This document shows positions 95 to 28,610 of a DNA stretch of 64,000 nt, piece after piece. Every line of letters starts with the position of its first letter. Position 1 is the stretch's first letter. The DNA is from Acidobacteriota bacterium (GTDB lineage Bacteria; Acidobacteriota; Terriglobia; Bryobacterales; Bryobacteraceae), in the NCBI GenBank assembly GCA_014584705.1, contig JACTMJ010000013.1, positions 1 to 64,000 of the forward strand. Reading direction: 5' to 3'. The notes below the pieces were generated by a model. The model saw only the letters and a list, made by a program, of their open reading frames with translations, was not told the DNA's origin and ran no database searches. The position numbers and the translations under genes are program-made.

Positions 95-2893
95 CTACCG
101 CTTCCCGAGGAGAGAGACATACTCCTCAGCCGCCGCCTTGAAGAGGTCGCCCTCCGGAACCTCGTCAATAACACCCATCCGCGACAGCTTCATGAAGCCA
201 AGCGTGGGGTCCTCCCGGAGCGTGCTCAGAGCGCTTCGCAGTGATCCTCTCTGCTGCACGACCTCCGTTACCCGAAACGTCTTCAACTCCGAGTCCTTCT
301 GTAACAACCGAAAAGCATCACCGGCCTCGACCGAACGCATCTGCCGGGTATCGCCCATGAGCACAACGCGGCAATCAAGTCGCTCAGTGAGGTCCAGAAA
401 CTCCGCCATCTGCTTGGAACTGATCAGGCTCGCCTGATCGACGAGGACTACATGCCCCCGGCGCTGCTGTGCCTTCTCCGTCGGCACCTCCATCCACGAG
501 CGCTGATTCAGGAGCGCGAACCGGCCCATGGCGATTGCATCCTTGACCCCGGCCCGCTTCAGGACATCCATGCTCGCCCCAGTCGGAGTTACGGTTGTGA
601 CTTCCTTCCCGGAACTTCGGATCGCATCCTGAATGGCAGCGAGAACCACCGCCGTCCTCGTGCCCGCCGCCCCTTGGATCGACACAACTCGATCCGTGCT
701 GTTCAAGACGCTATCAATCGCCGCCTGCTCTTCGGCCATCATTGGACGTTGGGCAATCCCCGGCCAGGTCAAGGGGGCATGCCTCCCAACTCCCCGGTTG
801 ATGTTGTCGATCATACTCTGCTCGCGGAGGAGCGTTTCCTTTGTAGCGATCAGTCCTTCAAGCCGAACCACATCCCCGCGTTCAATCTGCGCATTCAGGA
901 GCCGCTCGAGCTTTTCGTAGCTCGTCTTCCCTCGCCCGTGATCCATGGCAGCCGCGATCACCTCATCAACCTTCGCCACCGACAGCCGCTCGAAGACATG
1001 CTCTTTCGCGTATTCCAGAGACAGCACCGTGTGACGATCGGCCAACCCCTTCCACAGTTCAACGGCTTTATCCCAGCTAGCCGCCAGCCGTCCACCAACC
1101 GCCGCTTGAACGCGCTCAGGCTCAACTCCCCTCACCTTCCCCTGCTGCACTCGCTCCGGCTCAAGACTCGCCGTCCGCTCCTCGACCTTCTCTACCGCTT
1201 CCCGCGCCGCCATCTTCCTCGCTTCCATCCGCGCCAGAGCTTCATCGCGAACCCGATGAAGAAGAACCCGCTCCTGCTCCGTCATCCGGGCCTGCTGCAG
1301 AGCGTGGACTTCGGCCTTGGAAATCTTCGTCAGCTTCGGCTGCCGAGTTCCCCGGACAACTACCGCGACCTCGCTCCCGGTGAGTTCCCGGCCCTTTTCC
1401 GCCTCCAGCGCCTCTACGCCCTTGTCCCGGTCCTTGCTGCGTTGGCTGAACTTCTCCCGCAGGCTCTCCGGGATGCCCTTAATCTCGAAGCCGAGGCTCT
1501 TCCCGTTCTTGTCGAAGTTCGGCTCAATCTCGTAGCCCAACTGCTTCAGACCTTCAGCAAGAGCGCTCCGGAAGTGTTCCGTCGCCAGAGGCAGCGCCTC
1601 ATACATCCGCTTGGCATGCATCGCCTTGAACTGCCCCTCGACCTCATCCCAGGTCATATTCGGAATCACGAAATGGACATGAAGCTGAGGATCGAGCGCC
1701 CGACTTGTGTCGTGCAGGTAGGCAGCGGCCAGAAGCTCACCCGTCTCCCGAAGCTCATTCGCGCCGTTGACCCGGACGCGGGTATCAACGTAGGACTGTA
1801 AAAACTCGACCACGGTCGCTCTAGCCGCCTCAGCGAAGAGCGGCTCAATCCGGTCGTCTACCCTGGACATGATCGAAACCGACTTGGGCGCAGACACCAC
1901 GAAATCGTTCGCCGCCACACTGTTCTTGGTCCCGGCCCGCTCCCGGAGAACATCACCCGTCCGTGGATGACGACCGGCAATAAGCTTGTCCACATCTCCC
2001 TCTTCTACTACCCCGGCTATCCTAAGGCGTTCAGCAATCCTGCCCAGGAACAAGCCGACAATCGTCTGTTCCTCGTCGAGGTAATCAGGGAAGCTCAGGT
2101 GGCGTGCGGCATACCCCTTTCCACTCCGGACCTGGTAGGTGGTCACCACACCGAACACAGCCGAGATCGAGATGAGCGCCAACTTGTCGGCCAGTGAATT
2201 CACATCCGGGTAAGGCCAGAAGCAGCCCAGTTCAGAATCCCCAGACCGGTAAAGCCACAACAGAGAACTGCATGCGGCAGGCGAAATGCTAGCGGAAGAA
2301 ACCGAAATGCTAGCGGAAACACTATTCCCTCCGCCCTTGGGGGCGAAGGAGAACCGCCAAAACCAAGCGGTCCATACAAGCGCCGAGGCGAGGCCCACGA
2401 CGCGGCAGAAGACCTCCAGCCGCCAGCGGATCGGCACGTCTCTCCGACGCGATTCCCAGAGGCGAAACACGAGATCGAACGCTCCTGTGACGAGCACGGC
2501 GCGGACAAGATTGGTAAGAGCCTCGGCAAACGAAATCATGCCCAGCAGGTATCGAGCGATGGCGTCGAAAGCGAAGAGGCACGCCCACTGCGAGAGCAGG
2601 TTGAGCCAGAGGTAGCCGGCGACCAGCACGATGATGCCCGACGTGATGTAGCCGACGGCGACAATGCTGATCAGCACGCAAAGGAGCCGGAGGAGTTCCT
2701 CCCAGGAGGCGGCAACTGTGATCCTGGAAAGATCACGACTGCCGAGCAGGAGGAGAAGTCCGAGGAAGAGGAACTTCACGGACTGGAAGAACACCCGACT
2801 GGTGTCGATGCTCCGGTTCGTGAGGACCTTGAGTCCCAACTCACGGAGGTCCTGCGGCTCGAAATCCCACCAGGGCTTACGCTCAGTCATCAT
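95..2893 (-). CDS. MobF/TrwC-type relaxase with fused N-terminal membrane domain and degenerate helicase
   Basis: A 932-residue protein predicted to nick and carry the transferred strand of the mobile element. Residues 1-245 hold about five hydrophobic segments and no relaxase motif. The relaxase begins near residue 249, with candidate catalytic tyrosines Y261 and Y271 and the metal-binding histidines H394, H405 and H407 (LDPQLHVHF). A helicase-like part follows, but its Walker A reads GAAGTRT (residues 741-747; the GK pair of GTGKT is lost) and Walker B reads VDQAS (818-822; E to Q). GDTRQ (847-851) is kept. The protein ends about where the later helicase motifs should start, so it is shorter than TrwC. 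The start ATG has a GGAGG site and overlaps the preceding gene. The family call is firm; loss of helicase activity is inference. Confidence 0.8.
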   Translation of the reverse strand: MMTERKPWWDFEPQDLRELGLKVLTNRSIDTSRVFFQSVKFLFLGLLLLLGSRDLSRITVAASWEELLRLLCVLISIVAVGYITSGIIVLVAGYLWLNLLSQWACLFAFDAIARYLLGMISFAEALTNLVRAVLVTGAFDLVFRLWESRRRDVPIRWRLEVFCRVVGLASALVWTAWFWRFSFAPKGGGNSVSASISVSSASISPAACSSLLWLYRSGDSELGCFWPYPDVNSLADKLALISISAVFGVVTTYQVRSGKGYAARHLSFPDYLDEEQTIVGLFLGRIAERLRIAGVVEEGDVDKLIAGRHPRTGDVLRERAGTKNSVAANDFVVSAPKSVSIMSRVDDRIEPLFAEAARATVVEFLQSYVDTRVRVNGANELRETGELLAAAYLHDTSRALDPQLHVHFVIPNMTWDEVEGQFKAMHAKRMYEALPLATEHFRSALAEGLKQLGYEIEPNFDKNGKSLGFEIKGIPESLREKFSQRSKDRDKGVEALEAEKGRELTGSEVAVVVRGTRQPKLTKISKAEVHALQQARMTEQERVLLHRVRDEALARMEARKMAAREAVEKVEERTASLEPERVQQGKVRGVEPERVQAAVGGRLAASWDKAVELWKGLADRHTVLSLEYAKEHVFERLSVAKVDEVIAAAMDHGRGKTSYEKLERLLNAQIERGDVVRLEGLIATKETLLREQSMIDNINRGVGRHAPLTWPGIAQRPMMAEEQAAIDSVLNSTDRVVSIQGAAGTRTAVVLAAIQDAIRSSGKEVTTVTPTGASMDVLKRAGVKDAIAMGRFALLNQRSWMEVPTEKAQQRRGHVVLVDQASLISSKQMAEFLDLTERLDCRVVLMGDTRQMRSVEAGDAFRLLQKDSELKTFRVTEVVQQRGSLRSALSTLREDPTLGFMKLSRMGVIDEVPEGDLFKAAAEEYVSLLGKR

Positions 2894-3428
2894 TTCCTCC
2901 TCCTGGCCCCTTTGGGACGATCCGGACGTGAGGGCTCGTCAGGTATTCCCAGAACTTCCTCAGGAGACCCTTTTTCCTCTTCGGTCCTTCCTGGAGGAAG
3001 GAAACCTTGAGCCACCGGCGACGGCTCGCCTTGAACGTGTCACCAGCGGCAACAAAGACCGCCTCCACGACGCGATCCTTGCCGCCCTGCTTGAGCGTCA
3101 TCAAGGTATCGGTGTTCAGTTCGGTAGAGGCCCACGACTCCGGCCCGAACTTCATGGCGCTGCTAACCCGTTGACCGAGAGAAGCAGCAACCCACTTCTG
3201 CGTCTTCTCGTCGTCGGTCCTGCAGAGGAAGCGGTTGCGGAGTCCCGCGACGAGCATCATTGCGGCATCCCCGCCAAGGGCATTCGTCAGGTTATTGATG
3301 GTCTGCGTGGCGTAAATCACGGAGGTCATCGTGTAGCGGCACGAAGAAACGTGGCTCTCATCGCCAGTGGTGCACACCTCGTGGTAGTCGTCAACGAAGA
3401 GGAAGACCGGACGATATTTGAGGTTCAT
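2883..3428 (-). CDS. Coupling-protein (VirD4/TraD-like) C-terminal half with Walker B
   Basis: A 181-residue protein starting MNLKYRPVFLFVDDYHEV. The hydrophobic strand ending in DD at residues 13-14 is the Walker B of a VirD4/TraG-type DNA-pumping ATPase, and YATQTINNL further on matches the family's glutamine motif. No Walker A is present; it lies in the gene immediately before. The start ATG shares its A with the stop TGA of that gene (TGATG), and a GAGGGG ribosome site sits 6 nt upstream, so the two are probably translationally coupled. The same junction also allows a -1 frameshift (see the heptamer at 3431-3437). The 3' end overlaps the relaxase start. Either two subunits assemble, or a fused product is made as well. 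Confidence 0.7.
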   Translation of the reverse strand: MNLKYRPVFLFVDDYHEVCTTGDESHVSSCRYTMTSVIYATQTINNLTNALGGDAAMMLVAGLRNRFLCRTDDEKTQKWVAASLGQRVSSAMKFGPESWASTELNTDTLMTLKQGGKDRVVEAVFVAAGDTFKASRRRWLKVSFLQEGPKRKKGLLRKFWEYLTSPHVRIVPKGPGGGNDD

Positions 3429-4312
3429 CACTTTCCCCTCTTCGCTAGCGTCGCCCGCTGAAACATCACCTTCCACAGCACCAGCGCGACCAGGCCGGAG
3501 CGGGGAGATGCATGCGTGGGCCAGTCAACGATCACGATTTTCCCGTGGTCAAGAATGTCGTCCGGGCTTACCGTAGTGGTTGTCCCGAATCTGGTAAAGA
3601 GCGGGTCGTGGCAGAGTTCAGCAATAACCATCAGGGCCGAGGCCCGGATGCTCTCACGAGTTTCCACAGCGAGCGAAGGCCAGAAGTCGAGCAGGTAGCT
3701 CATCACCCGGCGCATCTCATCTTCCAGCGGGGATCGTTCAGCGCGCAGCCAGGCTTCCCGAAGCATCTTTAAGCAGTAGTTGGTCTCCGGGTCCAGCTCA
3801 CCTAGGCTTCGCGGCAGGCTGGTGAGCATCCTATAGATCGAACCTAGTTCGAGCTTTCCTTCGACGATGTAAAGAACGGTGAGGATCGCCCGAAACACGC
3901 TCAGCGCCGCCTCTCGAAAGAATCGGTCCTCATGGGCACCCTTACGGGCGAGTGCGTCCATGATAGACGTCAGGCAGAACAACACGTCTTCCATTACCAA
4001 CTGCATGTCGCGCTGGAGCTTCGAAACGTAGTCCAGGAAATTGAAAGTATGTTCAGAATTGGCGGAAAAGACGATCACATCGTCAATCCGCCCCGCTTCC
4101 TCGCACCAACGAAGATAGAGTTCGCGGCACTCAGTTTTGACGCAGAGGAAAAGCCCACCGAAATCGGCGCGAAGTTGGGCAAGCATCAGCGTCCGGGCAG
4201 CCCCGCTTGTCTTTCCCGTGCCGATACCGCCGAGGATTAGCACGCCGAGGAACGCCTGGAGAGTTGTGAAGAAGTCGCGACCGTTAAGGTCAAGAAGTTT
4301 GGGGATCTTCAT
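3428..4312 (-). CDS. Coupling-protein (VirD4/TraD-like) N-terminal half with Walker A
   Basis: A 294-residue protein with a Walker A at residues 28-35 (GGIGTGKT), followed by a helical all-alpha-like region and ending in IVIVDWPTHASPRSGL and WKVMFQRATLAKRGK. Type IV coupling proteins normally have N-terminal membrane helices, then Walker A, then Walker B in one chain. Here the protein starts directly before Walker A and stops just before Walker B, which is encoded by the next gene. A 71-residue membrane peptide is encoded 9 bp upstream and may supply the missing anchor. It presumably connects the relaxase-DNA complex to a secretion channel, but no type IV secretion genes are seen in the window. 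Confidence 0.7.
   Translation of the reverse strand: MKIPKLLDLNGRDFFTTLQAFLGVLILGGIGTGKTSGAARTLMLAQLRADFGGLFLCVKTECRELYLRWCEEAGRIDDVIVFSANSEHTFNFLDYVSKLQRDMQLVMEDVLFCLTSIMDALARKGAHEDRFFREAALSVFRAILTVLYIVEGKLELGSIYRMLTSLPRSLGELDPETNYCLKMLREAWLRAERSPLEDEMRRVMSYLLDFWPSLAVETRESIRASALMVIAELCHDPLFTRFGTTTTVSPDDILDHGKIVIVDWPTHASPRSGLVALVLWKVMFQRATLAKRGK
3431..3437 (-). other. Candidate -1 frameshift heptamer G_GGA_AAG
   Basis: On the minus strand the last codons of the Walker A gene read AAG AGG GGA AAG TGA. The heptamer G GGA AAG has the X_XXY_YYZ form of -1 slippery sites and sits directly before the stop. Slipping back one base gives GTG ATG AAC, the reading frame of the Walker B gene, producing an uninterrupted coupling protein. 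A GAGGGG element at the same place could act as a stimulator or as the ribosome site for re-initiation. Which is used cannot be told from sequence. Confidence 0.4.
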
Positions 4313-4321
4313 CGGAGATTC

Positions 4322-4537
4322 CTACGAAGGCCGATCGTCGCCAGGACGAACGGTATCAATGAGCGCTCGGACAACGGCCCAGATGGAGTCGCCGTCCAAC
4401 AGTTCACGGGTGAGGAGCACCGACAGTCCCAAGGCGGTGAGCTTGAAGAACACCGCCATGATCACCGTCGCGGGGCTCTTCGTAAAGGTATCCATGAACC
4501 GGAGGAAGCTGAGACGGCGCATCTCTTGGAACGTCAT
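4322..4537 (-). CDS. Small membrane protein of the mobilisation operon
   Basis: A 71-residue peptide starting MTFQEMRRLSFL. It has one or two hydrophobic stretches (about residues 17-40) and a short polar tail ending DDRPS. The start is chosen because its ATG overlaps the stop of the upstream gene (ATGA), and its stop lies 9 bp before the coupling-protein Walker A gene. I do not recognise the family. Position suggests it may act as a detached membrane anchor for the split coupling protein; this is inference. Confidence 0.6.
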   Translation of the reverse strand: MTFQEMRRLSFLRFMDTFTKSPATVIMAVFFKLTALGLSVLLTRELLDGDSIWAVVRALIDTVRPGDDRPS

Positions 4538-6351
4538 TTCCCACCTCCCGTCGTGGAGATGGCGAACGCGGCATACGTCTCCGTGGCTGGGCCGAGCACA
4601 TTCTGGCACCAATCTTCGAGGCCATGGAGACCGAACTGACGGCTGACAACCTCATCAGCCCCAGCGTCCATCATGCTGGCCTTCCAGCCGTCGAGGAGGC
4701 TCTTCTGCTTCTGGGGCGAGACCTTGGCCAACTCTATGCTTTCCAGGAACCCGAGATAGACCTTGACTCCGCTCAGTCGCAGGTCACCCAGGCTCGGGAC
4801 AACCGGCGTCGTGGGCTTATCACCAACGTCTTGAACAAGGTCACCCAGCACAACCAGACCACCCGGCGAAGCTCCATCAAGCAGTTCCCCCGCAAGCGTC
4901 ATAGCCGAGATGTAGTCCGACCTGCGGTCGTGCTTCCGCCACTTTGCAAGTTCATCTGGCAGTCGCGCTCGGAACTCCCGATACTCGGCTTCGAAGTTGT
5001 CGCCGAAGGCTTCCACTTCGCACGGAAGCCTCATCGAAAGGCCCTGGCCACGATTGCCGTTCACCGGCAGCACCGACATCTCCCAGCAAGAGGGGAGGTG
5101 CGCGAGCACCACACTGGCGGCAACGACGAAATCGGCATCGGTCGTCAGAACGCTCCGAGTAACATCCAGAATGACGATTACCCGCCCGGACTCTTGCGTA
5201 GGACTCATGCACCCGTGCTGCAACGGCAGCAAGAGCAGCAGGAAGAGCCCCGCTGCCGGGAACGGCAACTTCAGTTGAGTTGGCTTTGCATCGCGTCGGA
5301 GCGTGGGCAGCAGATTCAGCATTACGACCGCGAGGGCGACAATACCCACCAAGAGGGATATCACCAGCCCGAGGGTACCGGCGCGAGCCCAAAGCGCCAC
5401 AGTCAACCCGATCGCCAAGAGCGCCGCGCACCCGCCCACCGCCACGATCGTCAACATCCCGCGAACGGGATCAAACCCATCCCAGCGGGACGCCCGCATC
5501 TGCCCCACTTCGACGCCAAGGCTGTATTCGGCACTTGCGGCTCCGATGAGCTTCTGCAACTGCTCCCTGCGCTTCTCGAAGATGACTTCCTCGCGGGCCT
5601 TCTTCCTGAGGAGGCCGAACAACTTCGCCTTCAGAAGCACTCGGAACAACTTTCGACCATGGACGGTGATGCTCTCGCTCACCCGCCGCCAGATCATGGC
5701 CGAGACAATCGCGAAGATCGCGGTGAACACTCCGAGCATGACGACCAGCGACATGCCGTAGCCATCGAGAAGTTGTTGGGCCTTCCCGTCCGGGTAACGG
5801 GCAATCTCCACCAACTTGAGGTAGCCAAGGCGGAAGTGGATGAGCGCGGCGATTCCCACCGGAACCAAGGGGGCAAGGAGCACAGTGAGAAGATTGTTCC
5901 CTTGTTCCCAAAGGGAGGCGAGGCACTTGGTGAAAGCACTCGCGCCGAGGATCACCGGCAGGGCCATCAAGAGCAGCCATGGTCCCTTCGCGCCGAAGAT
6001 GGCGAAGCCCATCATCGTCGTTCCTGTCTCGCCCGCAACGGCGAGCACGATCACCGCCAGCAGAAGGATCGCCTTCCAGAGTGGGAGCGGTGGCGCACCG
6101 CCCGCGTTGATGGCCGCTTCGACTTCCGCGATCCGGGACTCCATCGCCGTGATGCTCACCTCCATGGTTCGGATCTTCGGCTCGTGGATCTCGGCGAGTC
6201 TTGCCTCGGCGGCTCCACCGAGTTCGGCAGCGTAGCGCTGCCGGTGTAGAACTCCCACGCCTCGGCGGCCATCTGTTGCGCCTTCACGGTGCCCAGGAAG
6301 CCTCTTCACCACCCAGTCGGTCGAATGAACAACACCGTTAATCCGAAGCAT
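4534..6351 (-). CDS. Polytopic membrane protein with C-terminal VWA-like domain, mobilisation operon
   Basis: A 605-residue protein of no family I can name. After an N-terminal coiled-coil-prone stretch (about 45-85) come several membrane segments (about 92-107, 122-140, 152-170, 198-220, 298-345). A second hydrophobic run (366-380) ends in LQHGC with C381, like a lipobox. The C-terminal third starts RVIVILDVTRSV; D-x-T-x-S resembles the MIDAS metal site of von Willebrand A domains. An internal Met at residue 344 could in principle start a separate lipoprotein made of the last 260 residues. The main start has an AGGAGGTG site and overlaps the upstream gene, and the stop overlaps the next gene, so it belongs to the operon. 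A role in mating contact or regulation is speculation. Confidence 0.6.
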   Translation of the reverse strand: MLRINGVVHSTDWVVKRLPGHREGATDGRRGVGVLHRQRYAAELGGAAEARLAEIHEPKIRTMEVSITAMESRIAEVEAAINAGGAPPLPLWKAILLLAVIVLAVAGETGTTMMGFAIFGAKGPWLLLMALPVILGASAFTKCLASLWEQGNNLLTVLLAPLVPVGIAALIHFRLGYLKLVEIARYPDGKAQQLLDGYGMSLVVMLGVFTAIFAIVSAMIWRRVSESITVHGRKLFRVLLKAKLFGLLRKKAREEVIFEKRREQLQKLIGAASAEYSLGVEVGQMRASRWDGFDPVRGMLTIVAVGGCAALLAIGLTVALWARAGTLGLVISLLVGIVALAVVMLNLLPTLRRDAKPTQLKLPFPAAGLFLLLLLPLQHGCMSPTQESGRVIVILDVTRSVLTTDADFVVAASVVLAHLPSCWEMSVLPVNGNRGQGLSMRLPCEVEAFGDNFEAEYREFRARLPDELAKWRKHDRRSDYISAMTLAGELLDGASPGGLVVLGDLVQDVGDKPTTPVVPSLGDLRLSGVKVYLGFLESIELAKVSPQKQKSLLDGWKASMMDAGADEVVSRQFGLHGLEDWCQNVLGPATETYAAFAISTTGGGK

Positions 6352-6730
6352 CGTTCACCTCCTCGTCAAAGGTCGGGTCCTCCGCCGCCATGGTGCCTAC
6401 GAAGGCGACATGACTATTCCGTGGCAAGTAGCGGCTGATCAACCGGCCCAGCGCGTCGTATTGACGCTTGCTCAAGCGCCAGATTTCAAAAATCTCGGTG
6501 TCGCAGGGGGTCAATCCGTAGAACTCTCCCCGCTTAACACTACGGCTACTCCAGTTCGCGAATCTCTTCTCCAGCGCCTTCCGAAAGCGATTCAGCGGGA
6601 TCTTGTCGGCGGGCATCCAAGGCAATTCAGCCGCCACGACCAAGGTGACGCCGAAATACCGCAACGACATCTCGTTTTGTTGAGGTTCATGACCTGGCTT
6701 CTTGCGAAGCCTCACAGTATCTGCCGCCAT
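6338..6730 (-). CDS. Hypothetical protein, first gene of the mobilisation operon
   Basis: A 130-residue soluble protein starting MAADTVRLRKKPG, with an AAGGAG site 8 nt upstream of the chosen ATG. It has a basic N-terminus and an acidic tail (EEVNDASD). No domain is recognised. Being promoter-proximal in a relaxase operon and next to a repeat-rich intergenic region, it might be an accessory DNA-binding protein, but no HTH is evident and this is only a guess. Confidence 0.5.
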   Translation of the reverse strand: MAADTVRLRKKPGHEPQQNEMSLRYFGVTLVVAAELPWMPADKIPLNRFRKALEKRFANWSSRSVKRGEFYGLTPCDTEIFEIWRLSKRQYDALGRLISRYLPRNSHVAFVGTMAAEDPTFDEEVNDASD

Positions 6731-6802
6731 GTTCAGCACTCCTTTCGGCGCAGTTGCGCCCTAGCCCAATGTTCACAGGCGGGTGAAGTGGAAGCCATAT
6801 TT

Positions 6803-6834
6803 CGTCTCTACGCGGGGTTGAATAGCGAGAGACG
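6803..6834. repeat. Inverted repeat in the divergent intergenic region (candidate oriT or operator)
   Basis: CGTCTCT (6803-6809) and AGAGACG (6828-6834) form a perfect 7-bp inverted repeat with an 18-nt spacer. It lies upstream of the mobilisation operon and is followed by a second inverted repeat. Origins of transfer usually lie beside relaxase operons and contain such repeats near the nick site. No nick site can be assigned by eye. Confidence 0.35.
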
Positions 6835-6852
6835 GTTGATGCCGGGACTGGC

Positions 6853-6874
6853 CGATCAGGCAATGGGCTGATCG
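6853..6874. repeat. Second inverted repeat in the same intergenic region
   Basis: CGATCAG (6853-6859) and CTGATCG (6868-6874) form a perfect 7-bp inverted repeat with an 8-nt loop, 18 bp past the first one. Together they occupy the roughly 400-bp gap (6731-7140) between the divergent mobilisation operon and the recombination genes. They may be oriT structure, operator sites or both. I see no gene in this gap. Confidence 0.35.
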
Positions 6875-7140
6875 ATGCTCAACTGCGCCAGAGATACATC
6901 GCCGCTTACGGTTGTACATTCGTTCGGTCTTTGATACTGATGGAGGTCTGGAGCGAGCTCATCAATCCAGAAGAAAGAAAAGATGTCCTGCATGAAGACG
7001 ATGTCAATTTATTCCATTGGAACCGCCACCTCAGGTAGGGCATCTCCTGGCGGCGCTATGTTCGATTTTGGCTTCAGTTGCCTGGCCCATGCGGCCAGGC
7101 CGGACAGAGCGCCTCCAATCTCACTTCTGGAGAGCCCAGC

Positions 7141-7491
7141 ATGTCCGATCGACAGATTCCATCGAATCATTACTTCCGCACCTGCCCGTTTTGCAAACTA
7201 GGATTCACTACGCCCTCGTCGGCAAGAATCTGTTGCGGCAGTGCGGAATGCGATAAGAACTCCCGCGCCGAGCGCAACGCGCGTTACCGCAAGGGCTACC
7301 GCGACGGCGTTCCGAACGCGAAACTCGCAAGAGTCCGCAAAATCAAAGCATCAAAGCACTCCCGCGACTACCGCGAGCGGAAGAAGCGCGAAGATCGTAG
7401 GCTCCCCATCGAACTGCCCAACGATAAGGCGCTCCGCAAACCGCCCGTGCGCGAGCAAGGCGAGAACAATCAGGACGCCAACGCCGCGTAG
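7141..7491 (+). CDS. Small basic zinc-ribbon protein
   Basis: A 116-residue protein starting MSDRQIPSNHYF. Near the N-terminus it has CPFC and, 14 residues on, a CCGSAEC group, which can form a treble-clef or zinc-ribbon site; the rest is very basic and helical (RYRKGYRDG, RDYRERKKRED). It is followed 11 bp later by the excisionase-like gene and then the recombinase, so it probably acts on element DNA. The function is not known. The start codon is the first ATG of this composition; an upstream in-frame extension is open but shows no family features. Confidence 0.55.
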   Translation: MSDRQIPSNHYFRTCPFCKLGFTTPSSARICCGSAECDKNSRAERNARYRKGYRDGVPNAKLARVRKIKASKHSRDYRERKKREDRRLPIELPNDKALRKPPVREQGENNQDANAA

Positions 7492-7502
7492 CGGAGGACA
7501 CT

Positions 7503-7715
7503 ATGGTTTCCCGCAACGGCGAAACGCAAAGCGAGGTCCTCACCCTCGCCGATGTGGCGTTGATTCTCCGCTGCTCGAAGGCTCACGTTTGCAACGTTAT
7601 CAACGGCAAGGTTCCCGATACGCCTCGCCTTCCCCACCTTGCCGTCGGACGGCGCAAACTCGTCCGCCGCGAGTGGCTGGAGGAATGGATGGAGGCGGCT
7701 AAGAGCGAATGCTAG
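7503..7715 (+). CDS. Excisionase-like helix-turn-helix protein
   Basis: A 70-residue protein with the layout of the MerR-like/excisionase HTH family: LTLADVALILRCSKAHVCNVI is the helix-turn-helix, and VGRRKLVRREWLEEWM is the typical wing and C-terminal helix. A GGAGG site precedes the ATG. It stands directly upstream of the tyrosine recombinase, the usual place for a recombination directionality factor. It would bind near the att site at 8997-9042 and favour excision. Confidence 0.7.
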   Translation: MVSRNGETQSEVLTLADVALILRCSKAHVCNVINGKVPDTPRLPHLAVGRRKLVRREWLEEWMEAAKSEC

Positions 7716-7765
7716 GATCGAAGGTATGTCAGGATTCGACGCCGGAAACGCGGGAAGGAAACTTC

Positions 7766-8863
7766 ATGCGTCGAAAGCGGTTCCAGCGCGGGAGCGTCAA
7801 ACCACGCAAGCGCAACGGAAAGAACTACTGGTATGCCCAATGGCGGGAGGACGGGAAGCCGAAATCGAAGGAGCTTGGACTCTGTTCCAAGATCACCCGG
7901 ATTGAGGCGGAAGGTCTCCTCGCCGACATACTGAAACCCATCAACACGGCGGCCCAGCCGGGCCCGCCAGAACACACCTTCCAGAGCTTCGTGGAAGAAA
8001 TCTATCTGCCAATTGCTCATCGGAGGTGGAAGAAGTCGACCGGGATGACCGAAGTGAACCGGCTTCAGGTTCACCTGGTCGCTCCACTTGGAAGAAAGCC
8101 CATCAAGGAGGTCACGCGAGAAGAGATGCAGAGCCTTCTCGACATGAAGGCACGAACTCTCTCACAAAGTTGTGTGGATCATCTTCGCTTCAGGCTGCGT
8201 TCGGTTTTCGAACTGGCCCTTAGCGAAGGGGTCGTAGACCGGAACCCGGCGAGAACTCTGTTCACCCCGAGGAACTGCAAGTCCGGTCAAACAAGGAACG
8301 TGCTGACTGCCGAGCAGGCCCGGAAGATGACGGAGACTCTCGATCTTCGGGAGAAGATCATCGTCCGGCTTGCCACCTGGGAAGGGATGAGGCCGGGCGA
8401 AATCCTTGCCCTTCAGTTTGGAGACATCGAGGAAGATTCTCTCTGGGTGAAGCGCAGGCTCTACCGGGGAAACATCGATTCGCCAAAGACCCGCCGCTCC
8501 TATCGGCAGGTGGCGCTCACCGAGGCGACCGTGAAACTTCTCGGGCTCTGGATGGAAGCGACCGGCACCGGAAGGCCGGAGGCGTGGCTGTTCCCGTCCG
8601 AGAACAGGGAGAATCCGGTCAGCCGGGACAACATCTGGAGACGAAGCATTTACCCGAGGCTCAAAACGATCGGCCTCGGTTGGGCAAGTTTTCAGGTAAT
8701 GCGGAGAACATTCGCCACCCTCTCCCGCCAGGCCGGTGTGGATGCCCACACTCGCTCGGCACAGATGGGAAATACGGTGGATGTGAACGAGAATGAATAC
8801 GCCGTGAGCGTCTTCAACGACCGTCTCGCGGCGGTGCGAAAACTTGAAACAGCGGTGCAGTAA
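7766..8863 (+). CDS. Tyrosine recombinase (integrase) of the mobile element
   Basis: A 365-residue phage-type integrase. The N-terminal part (about 1-140) holds the arm-binding and core-binding SAM-like domains. The catalytic part has the first arginine in GMRPGEILAL, a beta-strand lysine region (SPKTRRSYRQV), the second arginine in FQVMRRTF and the nucleophilic tyrosine in NENEYAV. The usual box II histidine before RRTF is replaced (FQVM), and the GH motif is replaced by QMGN. The start is set at the ATG with AAGGAA 7 nt upstream; an earlier ATG at 7709 overlaps the HTH gene. It ends 133 bp before the tRNA-derived att copy, as expected for an integrase next to its own attP. Confidence 0.85.
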   Translation: MRRKRFQRGSVKPRKRNGKNYWYAQWREDGKPKSKELGLCSKITRIEAEGLLADILKPINTAAQPGPPEHTFQSFVEEIYLPIAHRRWKKSTGMTEVNRLQVHLVAPLGRKPIKEVTREEMQSLLDMKARTLSQSCVDHLRFRLRSVFELALSEGVVDRNPARTLFTPRNCKSGQTRNVLTAEQARKMTETLDLREKIIVRLATWEGMRPGEILALQFGDIEEDSLWVKRRLYRGNIDSPKTRRSYRQVALTEATVKLLGLWMEATGTGRPEAWLFPSENRENPVSRDNIWRRSIYPRLKTIGLGWASFQVMRRTFATLSRQAGVDAHTRSAQMGNTVDVNENEYAVSVFNDRLAAVRKLETAVQ

Positions 8864-8938: not shown

Positions 8939-8961
8939 CTTAACGCAGTAAAGTGCAGTAA
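8939..8961. repeat. Putative integrase arm site, left of att copy 1
   Basis: CTTAACGCAGTAAA (8939-8952) followed by a second GCAGTAA (8955-8961) form a short direct repeat ending 35 bp before the att core. The first 14 bases match the right-hand site at 9140-9153 at 13 of 14 positions. The pairing suggests arm-type sites for the nearby recombinase. Confidence 0.5.
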
Positions 8962-8996
8962 GGTTTTAGCTGAAGACCGCTCGTAAGTTATTGAAA

Positions 8997-9042
8997 ATGG
9001 AGCGGGAGATGGGACTCGAACCCACGACGTCCAGCTTGGGAA
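8997..9042. repeat. att copy 1: 3' part of tRNA-Gly(CCC)
   Basis: A 46-bp segment identical to 12792-12837. Read on the minus strand it gives the anticodon loop TTCCCAA, the T-arm (GTGGGTTCGAGTCCCAT), the acceptor strand CTCCCGC, discriminator T and an encoded CCA. The 5' half of the tRNA is absent, so this is not a functional gene but an attachment site of an element that integrates at a tRNA 3' end. It separates the recombinase (left) from a rep gene (right). Confidence 0.8.
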
Positions 9043-9056
9043 CTTGTTCTTCGTTC

Positions 9057-9105
9057 GTGCATATAGAGCGAATACGTGCATTGCGTCCATCCTGTGCATA
9101 CAGAG
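9057..9105. repeat. Three GTGCAT direct repeats between att copy 1 and rep
   Basis: GTGCAT occurs at 9057, 9076 and 9094, spaced 19 and 18 bp; the first and third are extended (GTGCATATAGAG, GTGCATACAGAG). Regular spacing of nearly two helical turns just upstream of a RepA-like gene is typical of iterons. They could be a replication origin or an excisionase site. No equivalent of the same sequence was seen before the second rep gene, though CGTCTCTG repeats 19 bp apart occur there. Confidence 0.35.
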
Positions 9106-9139
9106 TCATCGGGTTAACATCTCTTACGCCGATTCCCGG

Positions 9140-9160
9140 CTTAACGGAGTAAACGGAGTA
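9140..9160. repeat. Putative integrase arm site, right of att copy 1
   Basis: CTTAACGGAGTAAACGGAGTA contains two tandem AACGGAGTA units (9143-9151 and 9152-9160) beginning about 100 bp after the att core. It mirrors the left-hand site at 8939-8961. Confidence 0.5.
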
Positions 9161-9306
9161 ACAAAATCCGTCCTCCGAAAGCGCTCGATTCAGTCGATCT
9201 GAAGGCCGTCTCTCAACCGCCCAAAACTGGGTTTGGAGACGAAGAATTGGCCGCAGATTCAAGACAGCCACACCATGGCGACCGCAGAGGCGTTTCTTGC
9301 CTTCAG

Positions 9307-10239
9307 GTGGTCGGTGATCTCATCGCGGAACGAGAGCTGGAACTGGCGATTTCTCGCTACCGCTATCGGCAGTTAGAACGCATCGACCGAATCCGAGCCG
9401 ATCCGGAGCGTCGCGGCACCCGGCTTGGTTTCACTTCTCGGCCGTTCGTACTTTGCGGTCTGCCGATGCGGCGCCCACCGAGCAACCAGCTTCTCTTCGA
9501 ACGGCGTAACGGCAAGTTTACCCTTCAACTACTCGGTCACCCCGACTTCGGTCTGCCATTCGGCCAGGACCGGCTGATTCTGATCTTCCTGGCCACACTC
9601 GCCGTGCGCCAGCAAAGTCCGACGCTCCGATTCCGCTCCGGCGCGGAGATGCTGGAGATGTTCGGCATGCAGGAAGGAGGCAAGGAGTATCGGCGTCTGG
9701 TCGCCGGTATTGAGCGGATCTTTGGCGCCACGATCTTCTTTGGCAGCGAATGTGCAACAGGCGGCACCAAGCTCTTCTCAAAAGCCCGGTTTCATTTCGT
9801 GAGAGCGACCCACATCTGGTACGACCGCGGTACTTTGACGACTTGCTCACCAAGCTGTGGAGAGAACGTCATCGAGTTGAGCGAGGAGTTCTTCCAGGAG
9901 ATCATTGCGCATCCGATTCCTACTGATTTGGAGGTGGTCCGGCTACTCGCTGCCTCGCCAGGAGCACTCGATCTCTATCTGTGGGTTAGCTACCGAAGCT
10001 TTGCGGCAAAAGCTCCTCAATCGATTCCATTGTTCGGTCCCCAAGGACTGCAGGCTCAGCTTGGCTGTACCGAGTACTCGAGACCACGACGATTTCGGGC
10101 AATGTTGGTTCAGTGGTTGAGGATAATTGCGCCAGTATGTCCACAGGTCTCGAACAGGGTTCGCGTCACATCCCAACATTTAGAACTGGGAGATTTAAGT
10201 GAGACCTGTTGCGATTGGCATGCAGGAATACTCGCGTGA
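9307..10239 (+). CDS. RepA-like plasmid replication initiator, copy 1
   Basis: A protein of about 310 residues with the signature of plasmid RepA proteins (RepA_C family): LPFGQDRLI, LATLAVRQQSP, FRSGAEMLEMFGM, EYRRLVAGIERIFGATIFFGSE and a winged-helix-like C-terminal half (DLEVVRLLAASPGALDLYLWVSYR). It is closely similar along its length to the protein at 13126-14052. The start is uncertain: GTG at 9307 is chosen because both copies share VGDL at this point, but a TTG at 9247 is in frame. Rep genes next to att sites mark integrative elements that can also replicate as plasmids. Confidence 0.75.
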   Translation: MVGDLIAERELELAISRYRYRQLERIDRIRADPERRGTRLGFTSRPFVLCGLPMRRPPSNQLLFERRNGKFTLQLLGHPDFGLPFGQDRLILIFLATLAVRQQSPTLRFRSGAEMLEMFGMQEGGKEYRRLVAGIERIFGATIFFGSECATGGTKLFSKARFHFVRATHIWYDRGTLTTCSPSCGENVIELSEEFFQEIIAHPIPTDLEVVRLLAASPGALDLYLWVSYRSFAAKAPQSIPLFGPQGLQAQLGCTEYSRPRRFRAMLVQWLRIIAPVCPQVSNRVRVTSQHLELGDLSETCCDWHAGILA

Positions 10240-10406
10240 TGACGCATTGCAACTAGCACCCCACGGACGAATCACGGACTTGGTTCACCGGTATGGAGCC
10301 CTCCGTCTACGCGAGTTTGAGCAGCATGGGATTTCCCAAATGTACTCAGCCAAAGCTATTGTTTTTTCCCTTCTGAGCGTTTCCCGCAGCAGTAACTTTC
10401 GTTTCG

Positions 10407-11279
10407 CTACTCTTGACGCAGTGCCTCTGCCATCTTGGCGTGCGGCATCAAGAACTCAGCAAGTTCACCCAGAACCTGATCAAGATTTCCTGGGTCAATC
10501 GCTACATCCTCGACAAAGGCTCGCCACTGCCGTTGTTTTTGTGGGTCTGCTGCAAATGTTGGCTGGAGCGCATCGGGCGGCTCGGTTGGAATCGCCGTCC
10601 CACGCCGCGCGAAGGTCGCCGCGATCGCCCGCGCAAGCCTGCTATCGCCAAAGCTGAACGAGCGGCTCAGGATCCAGACGTCGTAGAAGTCCTTCATCCG
10701 GCTATTCGCGCGTCCCAATACCACCATCGCCTGGAACTTCTCGGCAATGACCGTCTCCCGGGCATAGGCGTGCAGCCGTGGGCTAGGGAAGTCTAGCAGA
10801 ACCGGATAGTCAACGACTTCCGTCCCGGGCTCCAACGCATCGCCAAACCCAATGTCGATTGTCAGATTGATCCGGGCGCCGCCGACCGAAGCGATGCTTC
10901 GTAGTCTTAGCCCGCCGTACTCAGTCTCTTCGCGGATGCGATCGACTCGCAGCGTATCCGGATCGAATACGACGCCGTCTTCGACATCCTGTCCGAGGAT
11001 GTCGCGGAAGGTCGCAAGCATCGCGTCTTCGTTCGGGTCGCCAAGCCCCAATAGATCGAGGTCGCGCGTTCCGCGGTGCGGATCATTGAACCAACTCATC
11101 ATCAGCATGGCGCCTTTCAGTACGAAGCGGTCGGCATGGGCTGACTGGCTGAGCCGGAATAGAAGGCGCTCCAGGGCGAAGCGCGTGAGCACGAGATCGA
11201 AGCTTTGGCCGTTCGCTTTGGAGAGTCTAAGAAGCCGGGCACGTACGGAGGCGCCGATATTCTTGATTTCCTTAGCCAT
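10407..11279 (-). CDS. abiEii: AbiEii-type nucleotidyltransferase toxin
   Basis: A 290-residue protein of the nucleotidyl transferase AbiEii/AbiGii family, the toxin of a type IV toxin-antitoxin system. The family motif KGAMLMM...GTRDLDLLG (residues about 55-80) carries the two catalytic aspartates, and KFQAMVVLGRANSRMKDFYD matches the conserved lysine/aspartate motif. Known members block growth and protect against phage or stabilise mobile DNA. Its start overlaps the stop of the antitoxin gene by 8 bp, typical of the pair. Confidence 0.85.
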   Translation of the reverse strand: MAKEIKNIGASVRARLLRLSKANGQSFDLVLTRFALERLLFRLSQSAHADRFVLKGAMLMMSWFNDPHRGTRDLDLLGLGDPNEDAMLATFRDILGQDVEDGVVFDPDTLRVDRIREETEYGGLRLRSIASVGGARINLTIDIGFGDALEPGTEVVDYPVLLDFPSPRLHAYARETVIAEKFQAMVVLGRANSRMKDFYDVWILSRSFSFGDSRLARAIAATFARRGTAIPTEPPDALQPTFAADPQKQRQWRAFVEDVAIDPGNLDQVLGELAEFLMPHAKMAEALRQE

Positions 11280-11919
11280 TGGCGGTCAGCGCCTCCAGAT
11301 ATGGGCGGATCACGGTGCCAACCCCACCGGCATCCGCCGCCGTGGCAATCTCCGCCGGCGTCGCCTTGCGTTGACGCAGGGCTCGCTGGAGTCCTTCGAG
11401 AGCGATGGTCAGACCGATCTTGCCACGGTGCCGGAAACAGTCGGCAATGGTCTTCGCCACGCCAAACACTCTTACCCTTACGCCCTCGATCACATGAGTT
11501 TCGACGCTGTCTGAAAGCAGATCGTCTGAGAAACGCAGCACACGGATCCGCATATCGCTTGGCTTCGGCGTCCAGTCTCTTCGGCCGATCGCTATCCACA
11601 CCTTCTTCGGAAGCTGATCCGTAAGACCATGAAAGCCGAGTGCTGAAACAAGGCAGATCACGCCCTTAGGAAAACGCTTGGCCGCTTCCGCGAGGCTGTG
11701 GTTTGCATCAAGCTCCGCGTCAGGAAGCTGGTAGAGCCCTCGCGCGAGGCGGAGCACCTCGCCATCCCTCTCCATACGGCTGACCGTTGCGGCGGTCACG
11801 CCCGCATCGATGAGTTCCGCAAGGCGCAGGATCCCCTGCGTCTCAAGTAGAGCGCGGGCAATCTGGCGTTGGGATCGAGCTTTGGCCATCGATATATATT
11901 CTTTCACCTTATCGCCCAT
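11272..11919 (-). CDS. abiEi: AbiEi-type antitoxin
   Basis: A 215-residue protein with an N-terminal winged HTH (QGILRLAELIDAGVTAATVSRMERDGEVLRLARGLYQ) and the C-terminal AbiEi antitoxin domain (CLVSALGFHGLTDQLPKKVWIAIGRRDWTPK; VRVFGVAKTIADCFRHRGKIGLTIALEGL). Members repress their own operon and neutralise the AbiEii toxin, which overlaps downstream. A second in-frame ATG (11889, MAKARSQRQI) is an equally good start. The pair lies between rep copy 1 and a wrecked recombinase and probably stabilises the element. Confidence 0.85.
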   Translation of the reverse strand: MGDKVKEYISMAKARSQRQIARALLETQGILRLAELIDAGVTAATVSRMERDGEVLRLARGLYQLPDAELDANHSLAEAAKRFPKGVICLVSALGFHGLTDQLPKKVWIAIGRRDWTPKPSDMRIRVLRFSDDLLSDSVETHVIEGVRVRVFGVAKTIADCFRHRGKIGLTIALEGLQRALRQRKATPAEIATAADAGGVGTVIRPYLEALTANG

Positions 11920-12063
11920 CGTGTGAGGTTGTGTATCATTGTGTCATTCGGAAACCCCGATGTTATTGAGATGATGGAGGTTGCAGTACCTTCAACGCCT
12001 CATCCGTTTCCTGCTCGGTTGGTTTCTGATGCGTCCGGGGCAATCGGTGGGGCGTTTGAGTCG

Positions 12064-12282
12064 GGGGCTTCGTTGCAACTGGAGAACATCGGACTTCGTC
12101 ATCAGATCGCCATTCTCCAGCGTTCTGCGAGGAAACGCCCGAGGCTGAATCCGGCGGATCGGGCGCTCTGGGTTTGGTTGTCCGGCGTATGGCACGACTG
12201 GCGATCCGCTCTCGTCATGGTGAAGCCAGAGACGGTGATCGCCTGGCACCACACGGGATTCCGGTTGTTCTGGACCTGGAAG
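12064..12282 (+). mobile_element. Insertion-sequence transposase fragment
   Basis: About 73 residues (LQLENIGLRHQIAILQRS, PADRALWVWLSGVWHDWR, ETVIAWHHTGFRLFWTWK) match the N-terminal part of the DDE 'integrase core' transposases common in Acidobacteriota. The catalytic core is missing. The reading frame runs straight into a tyrosine-recombinase remnant at 12283, showing that an IS inserted and most of it was then lost. Confidence 0.65.
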
Positions 12283-12746
12283 GTGAATCGGGTCGCCGGA
12301 ATGCGGGAATCGGAAGCCTTTGCACTTCGGTGCGGCGACGTGGGTAACGACGGCATCCGTATCGAGCGTTCCTTCTACAAGGGCAAGTTCGAAGCGCCGA
12401 AGACCCCGAAGAGCGAGCGCATGGTGGGCGTTCCTGACGAAATTCTGGTGCGCCTTCGCACTTGGATTTCCAAGTTAACTGCCCAAGCCTCCGAGGATTG
12501 CGTTTTCCCTCCGCGAATCTTGCTACTCCGATTTGGCCGGAGAGCATGTTGCGTTTATATGTCCGCCCGCTGCTTCGGCCCGCGGGTCTGGGCTGGATTA
12601 ACTTCGCCGTTCTGCGGCGTTCGCATTCCACTTTGCACAAGCAAAGGAACTCGGACCTGAAGATTATTGCCGATCAACAGGCCCACGGAATGCGGACGCA
12701 CCTGGATGCTTACGTCCGGAGCGGAGTGCTGAGCAAACGAGGTTAA
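12283..12746 (+). pseudogene. Decayed tyrosine recombinase, C-terminal part
   Basis: The first frame reads AGMRESEAFALRCGDV (arginine box I) and then APKTPKSERMV. Near 12500-12545 a frameshift moves the rest into another frame: LGWINFAVLRRSHSTLH (arginine box II) and HGMRTHLDAYVRSG (catalytic tyrosine). The N-terminal domains are replaced by an IS fragment. The stop codon lies 46 bp before att copy 2, the same arrangement as the intact recombinase next to att copy 1. The protein is clearly different in sequence from the intact recombinase, so it came from a related but distinct element. Confidence 0.75.
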
Positions 12747-12754
12747 TCGAGGTA
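12735..12754. repeat. Putative integrase arm site, left of att copy 2
   Basis: AAACGAGGTT followed directly by AATCGAGGTA: two CGAGGT units 10 bp apart, ending 37 bp before att copy 2 and overlapping the recombinase pseudogene stop. They match the right-hand repeat at 12938-12958 and differ from the arms of att copy 1. Confidence 0.5.
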
Positions 12755-12791
12755 CGTTGATTTCGGCGAGGATTGTAAGTTGTTGATTTGA

Positions 12792-12837
12792 TGGAGCGGG
12801 AGATGGGACTCGAACCCACGACGTCCAGCTTGGGAAA
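12792..12837. repeat. att copy 2: 3' part of tRNA-Gly(CCC)
   Basis: Perfect 46-bp copy of 8997-9042, again without the 5' half of the tRNA. It lies between the decayed recombinase and the second rep gene. Confidence 0.8.
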
Positions 12838-12937
12838 AAGTCCGATCTCTGAATCTAATAGACTTTCGCGTCTCTGTCGCGTCTTCCCGTCTCTGCCAAG
12901 TCTTGCTGTATCCGTATCTCGACCTCTCGACCCTGCT

Positions 12938-12958
12938 AAACGAGGTAGAAACGAGGTA
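12938..12958. repeat. Putative integrase arm site, right of att copy 2
   Basis: AAACGAGGTA occurs at 12938-12947 and 12949-12958, starting 100 bp after the att core, the same distance as at att copy 1. CGTCTCTG direct repeats at 12869 and 12888 lie between the core and this site and may be iterons for the following rep gene. Confidence 0.5.
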
Positions 12959-13125
12959 CATTTTCCTCGCTTTCGATCACGGTTGGCACAGCACTCTCGG
13001 TGACCAGAAACCCGTGTTCCCGCGGCGCCTCGGGGTGCCGCGGGAATCCTCACAGGAGAGGTGTACTCGGAGTGCGCAAAAGCAGTATACAGCCAGTGAG
13101 CGAATGCGCGAACGGATTTCGGAAA

Positions 13126-14052
13126 GTGGGCGACCTCGTCCGCTGCGAGACGCCGGAACTGTTGATCTCCAAGTACCGGCAGCGGCAGTTGGAGCGCATT
13201 GATCTGATCCGGGCCGATCCCGAGCGACGCGGTGCGCGGCTGGGATTCACGTTGCGGCCATTCGTGCTCTGTGGGCTGCCGCTTCGCCGACCGCCTCGCG
13301 ATCAGCTCGTTTACGAGCGGAGAAACGGGAAGTTCACACTGCAATTGACGGGACATCCCGAGTTCGGCCTTCCGTTTGGCCAGGACCGGCTGATTCCCAT
13401 CTTTCTCGCAACGCTCGCCATGCGTCAGCAGAGTCCGATCCTCAAATTCCGGTCGGGTGCCGAGATGCTCGAAATGTTCGGCATGCAAAAAGGTGGAAAA
13501 GAATACCGGCGGCTGGTTGCGGGAATCGAACGCATCTTCGGCAGCACCGTCTTCTTCGGCAGCGAAGGCGTCCAAAACGGAGCGAAGCTGTTCTCCCGAG
13601 CACGTTTTCACTTTGTGAGCCAGACCCACATTTGGTTCGACCGGGGTTCGACCGGCAAACACTCATCCCGCAACCAAGAGAACGTAGTCGTGCTTAGCGA
13701 AGAATTCTTCCAGGAAGTCATGGCGCACCCGATCCCAACGGATTTGGAGGTGGTACGGCTGCTCGCCGCGTCGCCAGGAGCACTCGACCTCTATCTTTGG
13801 GTGACGTACCGAAGCTTCACGGCAAAGGTTCCACAGTCGATTCCTCTGTTTGGTCCCCAAGGACTACAGTTTCAAGTCGGCTGTACAGAGTACTCTAGAC
13901 CGCGACGGTTTCGAGCGATGCTGGTTCAGTGGTTGAAGACAATCGGAGCAGCAAGCCCACATTTCTCGAAGATAATCCGCATGTCATCGCAACACCTTGA
14001 GCTGGGCAGCCGATCACACCTGTTTCTGGAGGAAGCATGTCGCTGCTCGTAG
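13126..14052 (+). CDS. RepA-like plasmid replication initiator, copy 2
   Basis: About 308 residues, colinear and highly similar to the protein at 9307-10239 (LPFGQDRLIPIFLATLAMRQQSP, GAEMLEMFGMQKGGKEYRRLV, HPIPTDLEVVRLLAASPGALDLYLWV). The two differ mainly at the extreme C-terminus. The GTG start is chosen by comparison with copy 1; earlier in-frame starts exist. It follows att copy 2 just as copy 1 follows att copy 1, so it opens the next element. Confidence 0.75.
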   Translation: MGDLVRCETPELLISKYRQRQLERIDLIRADPERRGARLGFTLRPFVLCGLPLRRPPRDQLVYERRNGKFTLQLTGHPEFGLPFGQDRLIPIFLATLAMRQQSPILKFRSGAEMLEMFGMQKGGKEYRRLVAGIERIFGSTVFFGSEGVQNGAKLFSRARFHFVSQTHIWFDRGSTGKHSSRNQENVVVLSEEFFQEVMAHPIPTDLEVVRLLAASPGALDLYLWVTYRSFTAKVPQSIPLFGPQGLQFQVGCTEYSRPRRFRAMLVQWLKTIGAASPHFSKIIRMSSQHLELGSRSHLFLEEACRCS

Positions 14053-14903: not shown

Positions 14904-15698
14904 CTAATACCAAAAGCGGATCCCGGCCACTACCGACAGACTATTGGGATTCTCTCCCTGCCGCCGCCATAGGTCGGCAGTCTGGCCCGTTGCTCCGGTC
15001 CAGGAAACGCCGACGTAGGGAGCAAACTCGCGCCGGACCTCGTAGCGCAGTCGTACACCGGCCTCTGCGGTGCTCAAGCCCGAACCGATCCCCAGGCGCT
15101 CTACTTTCTGGAACGCGAAGTTTAACTCCGCCCGTGGCTGCAGGATCAGCCGCTGGGTAACAAACAGGTCATATTCACTCTCAAAGCGTGCCGAGACATC
15201 GCCATTGTTACTGACGAAGAGTGCAGTGTCGATCTCAAACCAGTAGGGCGCCAGGCCTTGAAAGCCGAGCACGCCAAACGTACGCCTCGCGCCAGGTGCA
15301 ACATCCTGGCGGACGCCCGCCTGAAAATCGAAGAACGGGCTGATTGCCCGGCTGTAAAGACCTTGGATCTCGGCTTCCTCCAGCTTGCCGCCCTCCGCGT
15401 ACTGGCCTTCGGTTTTCACCCAAAAGCGCTGGTAGTCGCTGCCCACCCAGCCTTGCGCGTCAAGAAGCATCTGGCCCGCGCCCTCGTTGGTCTGCGCTTC
15501 AAACCGGTCAGCCAGCACAAAGTAGTTTACCTGGCCGCCGGTTTCCTTCCGTAGGGCGTCTCGCGCCTTCTGCATGGCTCTAGGGTCGTAAACCTTGTCC
15601 GCCGCGTCGAAGGTCTTTTCCGTTTGTTGAGCGAAAGCCGGGATGCCAATCGCCAATCCTGCGATCAGCAGCGCGAGAAAACAGCGTGGCGCTTTCAT
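14904..15698 (-). CDS. copB: Copper resistance protein B (outer membrane)
   Basis: A 264-residue protein with a signal peptide (about 1-23, cut after FAQ). The rest is a beta-rich outer-membrane domain of the CopB/PcoB family: NYFVLADRFEAQ, FWVKTEGQYAEG, LYSRAISPFFDFQAGVRQD, EYDLFVTQRLILQPRAELN and a C-terminal aromatic ending in RFWY. It works with the periplasmic oxidase CopA to hold or expel copper. The ATG overlaps the copA stop (ATGA), so the pair is translationally coupled. The Met-rich N-terminal extension of some CopB proteins is absent. Confidence 0.88.
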   Translation of the reverse strand: MKAPRCFLALLIAGLAIGIPAFAQQTEKTFDAADKVYDPRAMQKARDALRKETGGQVNYFVLADRFEAQTNEGAGQMLLDAQGWVGSDYQRFWVKTEGQYAEGGKLEEAEIQGLYSRAISPFFDFQAGVRQDVAPGARRTFGVLGFQGLAPYWFEIDTALFVSNNGDVSARFESEYDLFVTQRLILQPRAELNFAFQKVERLGIGSGLSTAEAGVRLRYEVRREFAPYVGVSWTGATGQTADLWRRQGENPNSLSVVAGIRFWY

Positions 15699-28597: not shown

Positions 28598-28610
28598 GGG
28601 AATCACCCTT

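Follow-up and report, generated by a model that had tools for sequence, protein, structure and literature searches.

Features of the locus

The window analyzed here is the first 64,000 nucleotides (C11:1-64000) of contig JACTMJ010000013.1 from an Acidobacteriota bacterium of the family Bryobacteraceae (assembly GCA_014584705.1; genome of 4.88 Mb), and the subject is a pair of attachment (att) sites, att1 and att2, with the integrase (int) and replication initiator (rep) genes beside them. The order along the locus is int1, att1, rep1, an AbiEii/AbiEi gene pair, an integrase remnant (int_B), att2, and rep2. The att1 core (8997..9042) and the att2 core (12791..12836), both on the minus strand, are identical over all 46 bp and correspond to the 3' half of tRNA-Gly(CCC), taking in the encoded CCA end and reaching the anticodon loop. 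An earlier note on this DNA had reported the exact repeat and its tRNA origin; both were borne out, although its start for the second copy (12792) was one base off. A 35-bp core is present four times in the genome (C7:26349 on the minus strand of a second contig, C11:9008, C11:12802, and C11:147186), of which only the copy at C11:147186 lies in an intact tRNA-Gly(CCC) gene (C11:147176-147250). The core was also found in 51 of 101 genomes of the family.

All four copies carry paired 9-11-bp direct repeats (arms) at fixed distances, the left repeats ending about 35-48 bp before the core and the right ones starting ~100 bp past it. Within the window the arm pairs all read on the plus strand. The att1 left pair (CTTAACGCAGTAAAGTGCAGTAAGG, 8939..8963) lies on the int1 side of an element that we call E1, and its pattern, TTAACGCAGTAAAGTGCAGTAA, matches at 8940-8961 and nowhere else in the genome. 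The att1 right pair (TTAACGGAGTAAACGGAGTAA, 9141..9161) forms the rep-side end of a second element, E_A. The arms of att2 are of another type, B: the left pair (AAACGAGGTTAATCGAGGTA, 12735..12754; pattern AACGAGGTTAATCGAGGTA at 12736-12754) recurs as an identical sequence only in a genome of another genus (G008), twice, each time behind the cognate integrase, and the right pair (AAACGAGGTAGAAACGAGGTA, 12938..12958; pattern AACGAGGTAGAAACGAGGTA at 12939-12958) has a related, B-type counterpart next to a rep gene in the same-genus genome G173. The repeats lay where the earlier note had placed them. Scattered copies elsewhere in the genome were looked for, and own-genome arms occurred only at att junctions.

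Arm matches place a border between two elements at att1

The arms of the own-genome junctions were scored against one another. The att1 right arm matched the left arm of the tRNA junction (C11:147120-147138) at 19 of 19 positions, and the att1 left arm scored 13 with the right arm of the C7 junction but only 11 with the right arm of its own, a value reached by 16.5% of unrelated left/right pairs. The att2 arms scored 9 with each other, and neither exceeded 6 with any other own-genome arm. Remaining pairings scored 5-6, except for cross-scores of 10-11 between the related GCAGTAA and GGAGTAA motifs. On the basis of these matches, E1 would therefore span C7 to att1, E_A would span att1 to the tRNA gene, and att2 would be a complete B/B site inside E_A. 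Because its two arms match those of other junctions, att1 is, as judged by arm sequence, a hybrid attR/attL seam of E1 and E_A rather than a complete attP; by the same measure att2 is an intact attP-like site with both arms of type B, nested in the ~138-kb E_A. The arms of att1 do not belong to one integrase, as int1 and int_A (C11:145906-147048) fall in different arm clades, whereas those of att2 do. The earlier note had described arms that match within each copy and two complete attP sites, which agrees with the form of att2 but not with att1. The left arm at C7, TTTGGAGCA twice, matches no other own-genome arm and marks a putative fourth element, E0.

We consider it probable (roughly 0.8) that the locus is a pile of elements at one tRNA-Gly gene, with att1 a seam, att2 a nested complete B site, and each integrase tied to its own arms. 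At least four integrative elements would be arrayed at the 3' end of tRNA-Gly(CCC) in the order E0 remnant, C7 junction, E1, att1, E_A, and tRNA, with element B lying inside E_A at att2. All of them would encode bivalent tyrosine integrases of the lambda/P4 type, each with an N-terminal domain predicted to recognize the 9-11-bp arm pairs and a C-terminal part predicted to cut at the anticodon-loop end of the core. With rep or par genes to the right of the core and the int gene about 30-180 bp to its left, the circular element would read int, arm pair, core, arm pair, and rep, both arm pairs sharing one motif. Insertion would split the arms, and an array junction would thus combine the int-side arm of one element with the rep-side arm of the next. 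The unequal left and right arm distances vanish if the crossover is placed at the anticodon-loop end of the block, a position suggested by analogy with the common tRNA sublocation (PMC4383910). The cores, the arms and how they pair, the rep change-point described below, and the covariation of integrases with arms are visible in the sequence itself; from these we infer arm binding by the integrases, the place of the crossover within the core, the recombination route considered below, and any present mobility.

Two further sequences accompany the cores. A conserved stretch, TTGAAAATAAAGAAC..TATGCGTCCATGGCG, is present at +15 to +45 to the right of the core, between the core and the right arm, at most junctions, and CCAAGTTATTGAAAA is found immediately to the left of the core at most junctions; both are possible accessory-protein or core-type sites.

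Arm repeats across the Bryobacteraceae

Arm pairing was surveyed at 94 core junctions of the family. Tandem arm repeats were detected in 56 of the 90 left windows and in 46 of the 86 right ones, as compared to 7.5% in shuffled sequences. When wide, unbiased windows were used, 25 of 32 left repeats ended 30-48 bp short of the core, and 24 of 31 right repeats started 95-107 bp beyond it. The shuffles and this clustering of distances relative to the core rule out chance repeats. Right arms matched a left arm from a different junction in their own genome (mean score 10.54 versus 8.67 ± 0.56; 1 of 2000 permutations was as high), whereas the two arms of one junction were not matched beyond chance (294 of 2000 permutations). 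Clean examples of pairing between element ends were seen in six genomes (G066, G032, G027, G023, G020, and G095). Arms thus pair end to end, and a hybrid appears to be the normal state of an inner junction, att1 included.

Two junctions of G095 (L017 and L058, on C128 and C133) are reciprocal hybrids, one with a GCAGTAA left arm and a TGGAATAA right arm and the other the reverse; they represent either two alternating elements or a circular cointegrate. A same-type A/A junction (L151/L165, G015:C318) indicates that same-type tandems can carry matching arms on both sides. At two other junctions (L048, G004:C34; L155, G171:C146), two inverted arm copies, CGATTACTGCGATTACTGC, directly precede two direct copies, GCAGTAATCGCAGTAA, to the left of the core, and single inverted arms occupy the left side at three G008 junctions (near 2337600, 2357600, and 4515400). 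Inverted arm-like sites at the start of int are known from phages (PMC3706429).

Integrase clades and arm motifs

The int1 gene (7709..8863, plus strand) encodes a tyrosine integrase of the GCAGTAA-arm clade. Its product matches Pfam Phage_integrase (2e-11) and Phage_int_M, its AF2 model (pLDDT 85) matches lambda and Tn1549 Int in Foldseek (E about 1e-10), and R228, R332, and Y364 are invariant in the integrase alignment; int1 has the catalytic domain of tyrosine recombinases. Its named relatives are from Acidobacteria, including Bryobacteraceae and Candidatus Sulfopaludibacter metagenome-assembled genomes. No Pfam arm domain was matched in int1. The modeled N-terminal domain has a beta-beta-beta-alpha fold, and its best Protein Data Bank matches are the arm-binding domains 3rmp and 3jtz (probabilities 1.00 and 0.99), on which basis int1 is predicted to carry an N-terminal arm-binding domain. 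An attP core with arm-type repeats on both sides, as in lambda/P4-type systems, is apparent in the sequence, and binding of the repeats by the integrase is predicted.

Arm motifs follow the integrase phylogeny. The nine arm classes, mapped on a tree of 26 integrases, require 8 changes, the minimum possible, and none of 200 shuffles was as low; one of the 26 typed arm strings (J90) is not verbatim, as the site has three tandem units, and its class is unaffected. The Mantel correlation between integrases and arms was 0.62 (rho), a value attained in 0 of 2000 permutations. Seven other GCAGTAA-arm integrases group with int1 (support 100/99). The A-arm pattern gave 24 matches in 18 of 237 Bryobacteraceae genomes, mostly beside tRNA-Gly cores, and its reversed control gave 0; left matches sit behind integrases nearer to int_A than to int1, and right matches lie ~100 bp past a core, in several cases with rep downstream. 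This covariation upholds the earlier note's proposal that related recombinases with different arms act around tRNA-derived cores, insofar as sequence patterns speak to it. The residues that separate the GCAGTAA from the GGARTAA clade, at positions 35-61, almost all lie within or next to the three strands of the N-terminal domain. We tentatively suggest, at slightly less than even odds, that one integrase family has kept tRNA-Gly(CCC) as its attB and diversified its arm code to at least eight motifs, so that elements stack while each integrase finds only its own ends; arm choice, not core choice, would then set element identity, with specificity residing in the N-domain beta-sheet.

The repeats might instead be sites of some other protein (Rep iterons, excisionase, or repressor) that chance to sit at element ends, a reading to which we give the least credence: right arms do lie upstream of rep and iterons are likewise short direct repeats, but the left arms lie between int and the core with no rep there, the motif tracks the integrase clade and recurs unchanged at the two ends of an element, and the spacing from the att core is constant.

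Probable origin of the nested site att2

The genes on either side of att2 bear on how element B came to lie inside E_A. Upstream is a remnant of its integrase gene, int_B (12292..12746, plus strand), which is frameshifted and retains only the C-terminal part, the N-terminal (arm-binding) part being gone; it is 62-66% identical to the B-arm integrase of G008 and 31-39% identical to int1 and int_A. The right flank of att2 is 72-92% identical to that of G173, as compared to 33-55% for the att1 flank. The two initiator genes, rep1 (9247..10239, plus strand; Pfam RepA_C, 4.9e-10) and rep2 (13000..14052, plus strand; RepA_C, 8.2e-12), encode RepA-type proteins and are chimeric. The 5' end of rep1 is of A type and its body is nearer to B type, and the 5' end of rep2 is of B type with a body less B-like than that of rep1. 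Informative sites favored the match of rep2 with G173 by 56:9 before position 9424 in rep1 (13240 in rep2) but stood at 59:97, the opposite preference, after it; 0 of 2000 permutations gave so strong a contrast. The reversed preference in the body alone gave p 0.003, and in the protein tree of the body rep1 joined G173 with support of 81/81, as compared to 2% of bootstraps for rep2 with G173. From these change-points, B would extend over 9424..13240.

Normal insertion of B next to A would leave a hybrid at att2, whereas a single crossover between the rep gene of A and a circular B is expected to give a complete B/B site flanked by A arms. Thus, B likely entered E_A by homologous recombination in rep, as far as the rep sequences indicate, and att2 would keep both B arms because entry was not by way of att. 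The recombination could have been chromosomal or have taken the form of a plasmid cointegrate, and the B integrase would have decayed after entry. A free circular form was not found, and the plasmid relatives are distant (integrase <28% identical among the matches listed and rep about 30%).

An unlikely alternative is that att2 is what remains of a longer array, in which several A and B elements integrated next to one another in the ordinary way and a pair of internal deletions then produced [A-rep ... int_B] att2 [B-rep ... int_A], with no homologous recombination between A and B. It yields the same arm order, arrays are common in these genomes, and int_B is plainly decayed; it requires, however, four or more elements and a matching pair of deletions, and it does not predict the affinity switch inside both rep genes. 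We hold it more improbable still that both copies are complete attP sites arising from head-to-tail fusion of circular elements or from same-type tandems at each place, as the earlier note had supposed. The att2 arms do match on both sides, and a same-type tandem junction with the A motif on both sides is known (G015 J82), but the att1 arms fit other junctions better (19 and 13 versus 11, the last a score common among unrelated pairs), which rules out att1 as a full attP. Moreover, a B-B tandem at att2 leaves the A ends to its left and right in need of a separate explanation, and the rep change-point is unexplained. Neither fusion nor tandem is needed for att1; for att2 a form of fusion is favored, B into the rep of A, rather than a same-type tandem.

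Several points count against the stacked-element reading preferred here. The ends of contigs C7 and C11 do not overlap, so that the E1 halves are joined by the arm match alone, and a tblastn search of C7 with int1 found no integrase for E0. Not all genomes conform to end-matching; pairs in G054, G063, and G019, for example, score low, which may reflect junctions missing from the fragmented assemblies of these relatives, some of whose junction sets are incomplete. The matches of the int1 N-domain to 3rmp and 3jtz have Foldseek E values of 0.13-0.16, i.e. >0.1, and the integrase-arm covariation could partly reflect common ancestry of whole int-att cassettes. Concerning rep, the approximately unbiased (AU) test keeps the grouping of rep2 with G173 (p 0.286), the signal of the body taken alone being weak; only one B-type reference rep exists; and the G173 element may itself be recombinant.

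Comparison with known systems

The closest known architecture is that of attP in the cluster J mycobacteriophages Omega and BAKA, where, as here, int is followed by a tRNA-derived core flanked by paired direct repeats (PMC3706429). In these phages, the putative arm sites are imperfect direct repeats of 10 bp arranged as two pairs (P1-P2 and P3-P4), and the 44-bp tRNA-derived common core lies ~100 bp downstream of int (PMC3706429). They differ in being phages, in using tRNA-Leu, and in showing no systematic arm difference to match their differing N-terminal domains, as compared to the motif-clade covariation described above (PMC3706429). The attP of IntS from ICEMlSym(R7A) resembles the present sites in belonging to a conjugative element with a tyrosine integrase and several arm-type repeats around the core; its sites, P1-P5 (TGKTGGTATC), are all required for efficient integration (PMC11963761). 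It has, however, five sites rather than two pairs, of unrelated sequence, and they are experimentally backed, whereas ours are drawn from sequence (PMC11963761). Bivalent binding of arm and core sites is established for lambda Int (PMC4880445). The P4-like arm-binding domains 3rmp and 3jtz share the predicted N-terminal fold of int1 but only 20-25% sequence identity with that domain.

The attachment site of the SXT/R391 elements is prfC. Different members sharing this one site stack in tandem and form hybrids by homologous recombination, as proposed here, but they are >95% identical over 64 kb, in contrast to the ~75-80% rep identity and distinct arm motifs at our locus (PMC2786100). Accretion of several islands in tandem, with a copy of the 3' end of the shared tRNA or tmRNA gene bounding each, is likewise known from the Dehalococcoides ssrA islands (PMC3146451) and from the Islander tandems (PMC4383910). 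The former use a serine recombinase (PMC3146451), and the Islander survey of 2168 genomes lists 125 tandems, only 4 of them with at least three members, with arm sites outside its scope (PMC4383910). Acidobacterial elements in tRNA-Gly were not found in the literature searched. The parts are themselves familiar; what is new is the Bryobacteraceae family of elements, the end-to-end pairing of arms, a single attB at which the arm code changes from clade to clade, and the nested att2. As a rule, arm sites are known from single integrases, whereas the dozens of junctions at this one tRNA gene tie clades to motifs and open the arm-binding code, with its orthogonality, to direct tests. The series also yields a border rule for stacked islands, namely to pair arms and not cores, and the locus illustrates how rep genes of plasmid type may trap one element inside another.

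Additional features of the elements

The distal part of E1 within the window (95..8863) contains a TrwC relaxase (Pfam TrwC, 4.1e-63), a coupling protein (T4SS-DNA_transf), and int1; the remainder of E1 is assigned to C7 by the arm match. The putative E0 end at C7:26385-36934 adjoins long ORFs that resemble, as judged by eye, a helicase, a DNA methylase, and a restriction subunit. Between att1 and att2, the sole intact cargo seen is a type IV toxin-antitoxin pair (10407-11919) on the minus strand, consisting of the AbiEii nucleotidyltransferase toxin gene (10407..11279; Pfam AbiEii, 5.3e-50) and the AbiEi antitoxin gene (11272..11919; Pfam AbiEi_4, 6.5e-11), which may hold the nested segment in place. 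A 71-residue stretch (12079-12291) is fused in frame upstream of the int_B remnant; it has no Pfam match and no second copy in this genome, and one idea is that it derives from an insertion sequence.

The proximal part of E_A begins at 13241 and fills the window to 64000, the element continuing to C11:147138, where int_A (45% identical to int1) adjoins the intact tRNA gene. Genes along E_A include the type IV secretion genes VirB4/TrbE, TrbL, TrbI, and CagX together with a coupling protein and ArdC, and E_A is therefore taken to be a conjugative element of ~138 kb; judged by gene content, it has the integrase, att ends, type IV secretion genes, and coupling protein of an integrative and conjugative element. 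Near its start, genes for a multicopper oxidase, a P-type ATPase, and an RND pump (15695-17665, 21980-24178, and 25520-28636) are likely metal-resistance cargo.

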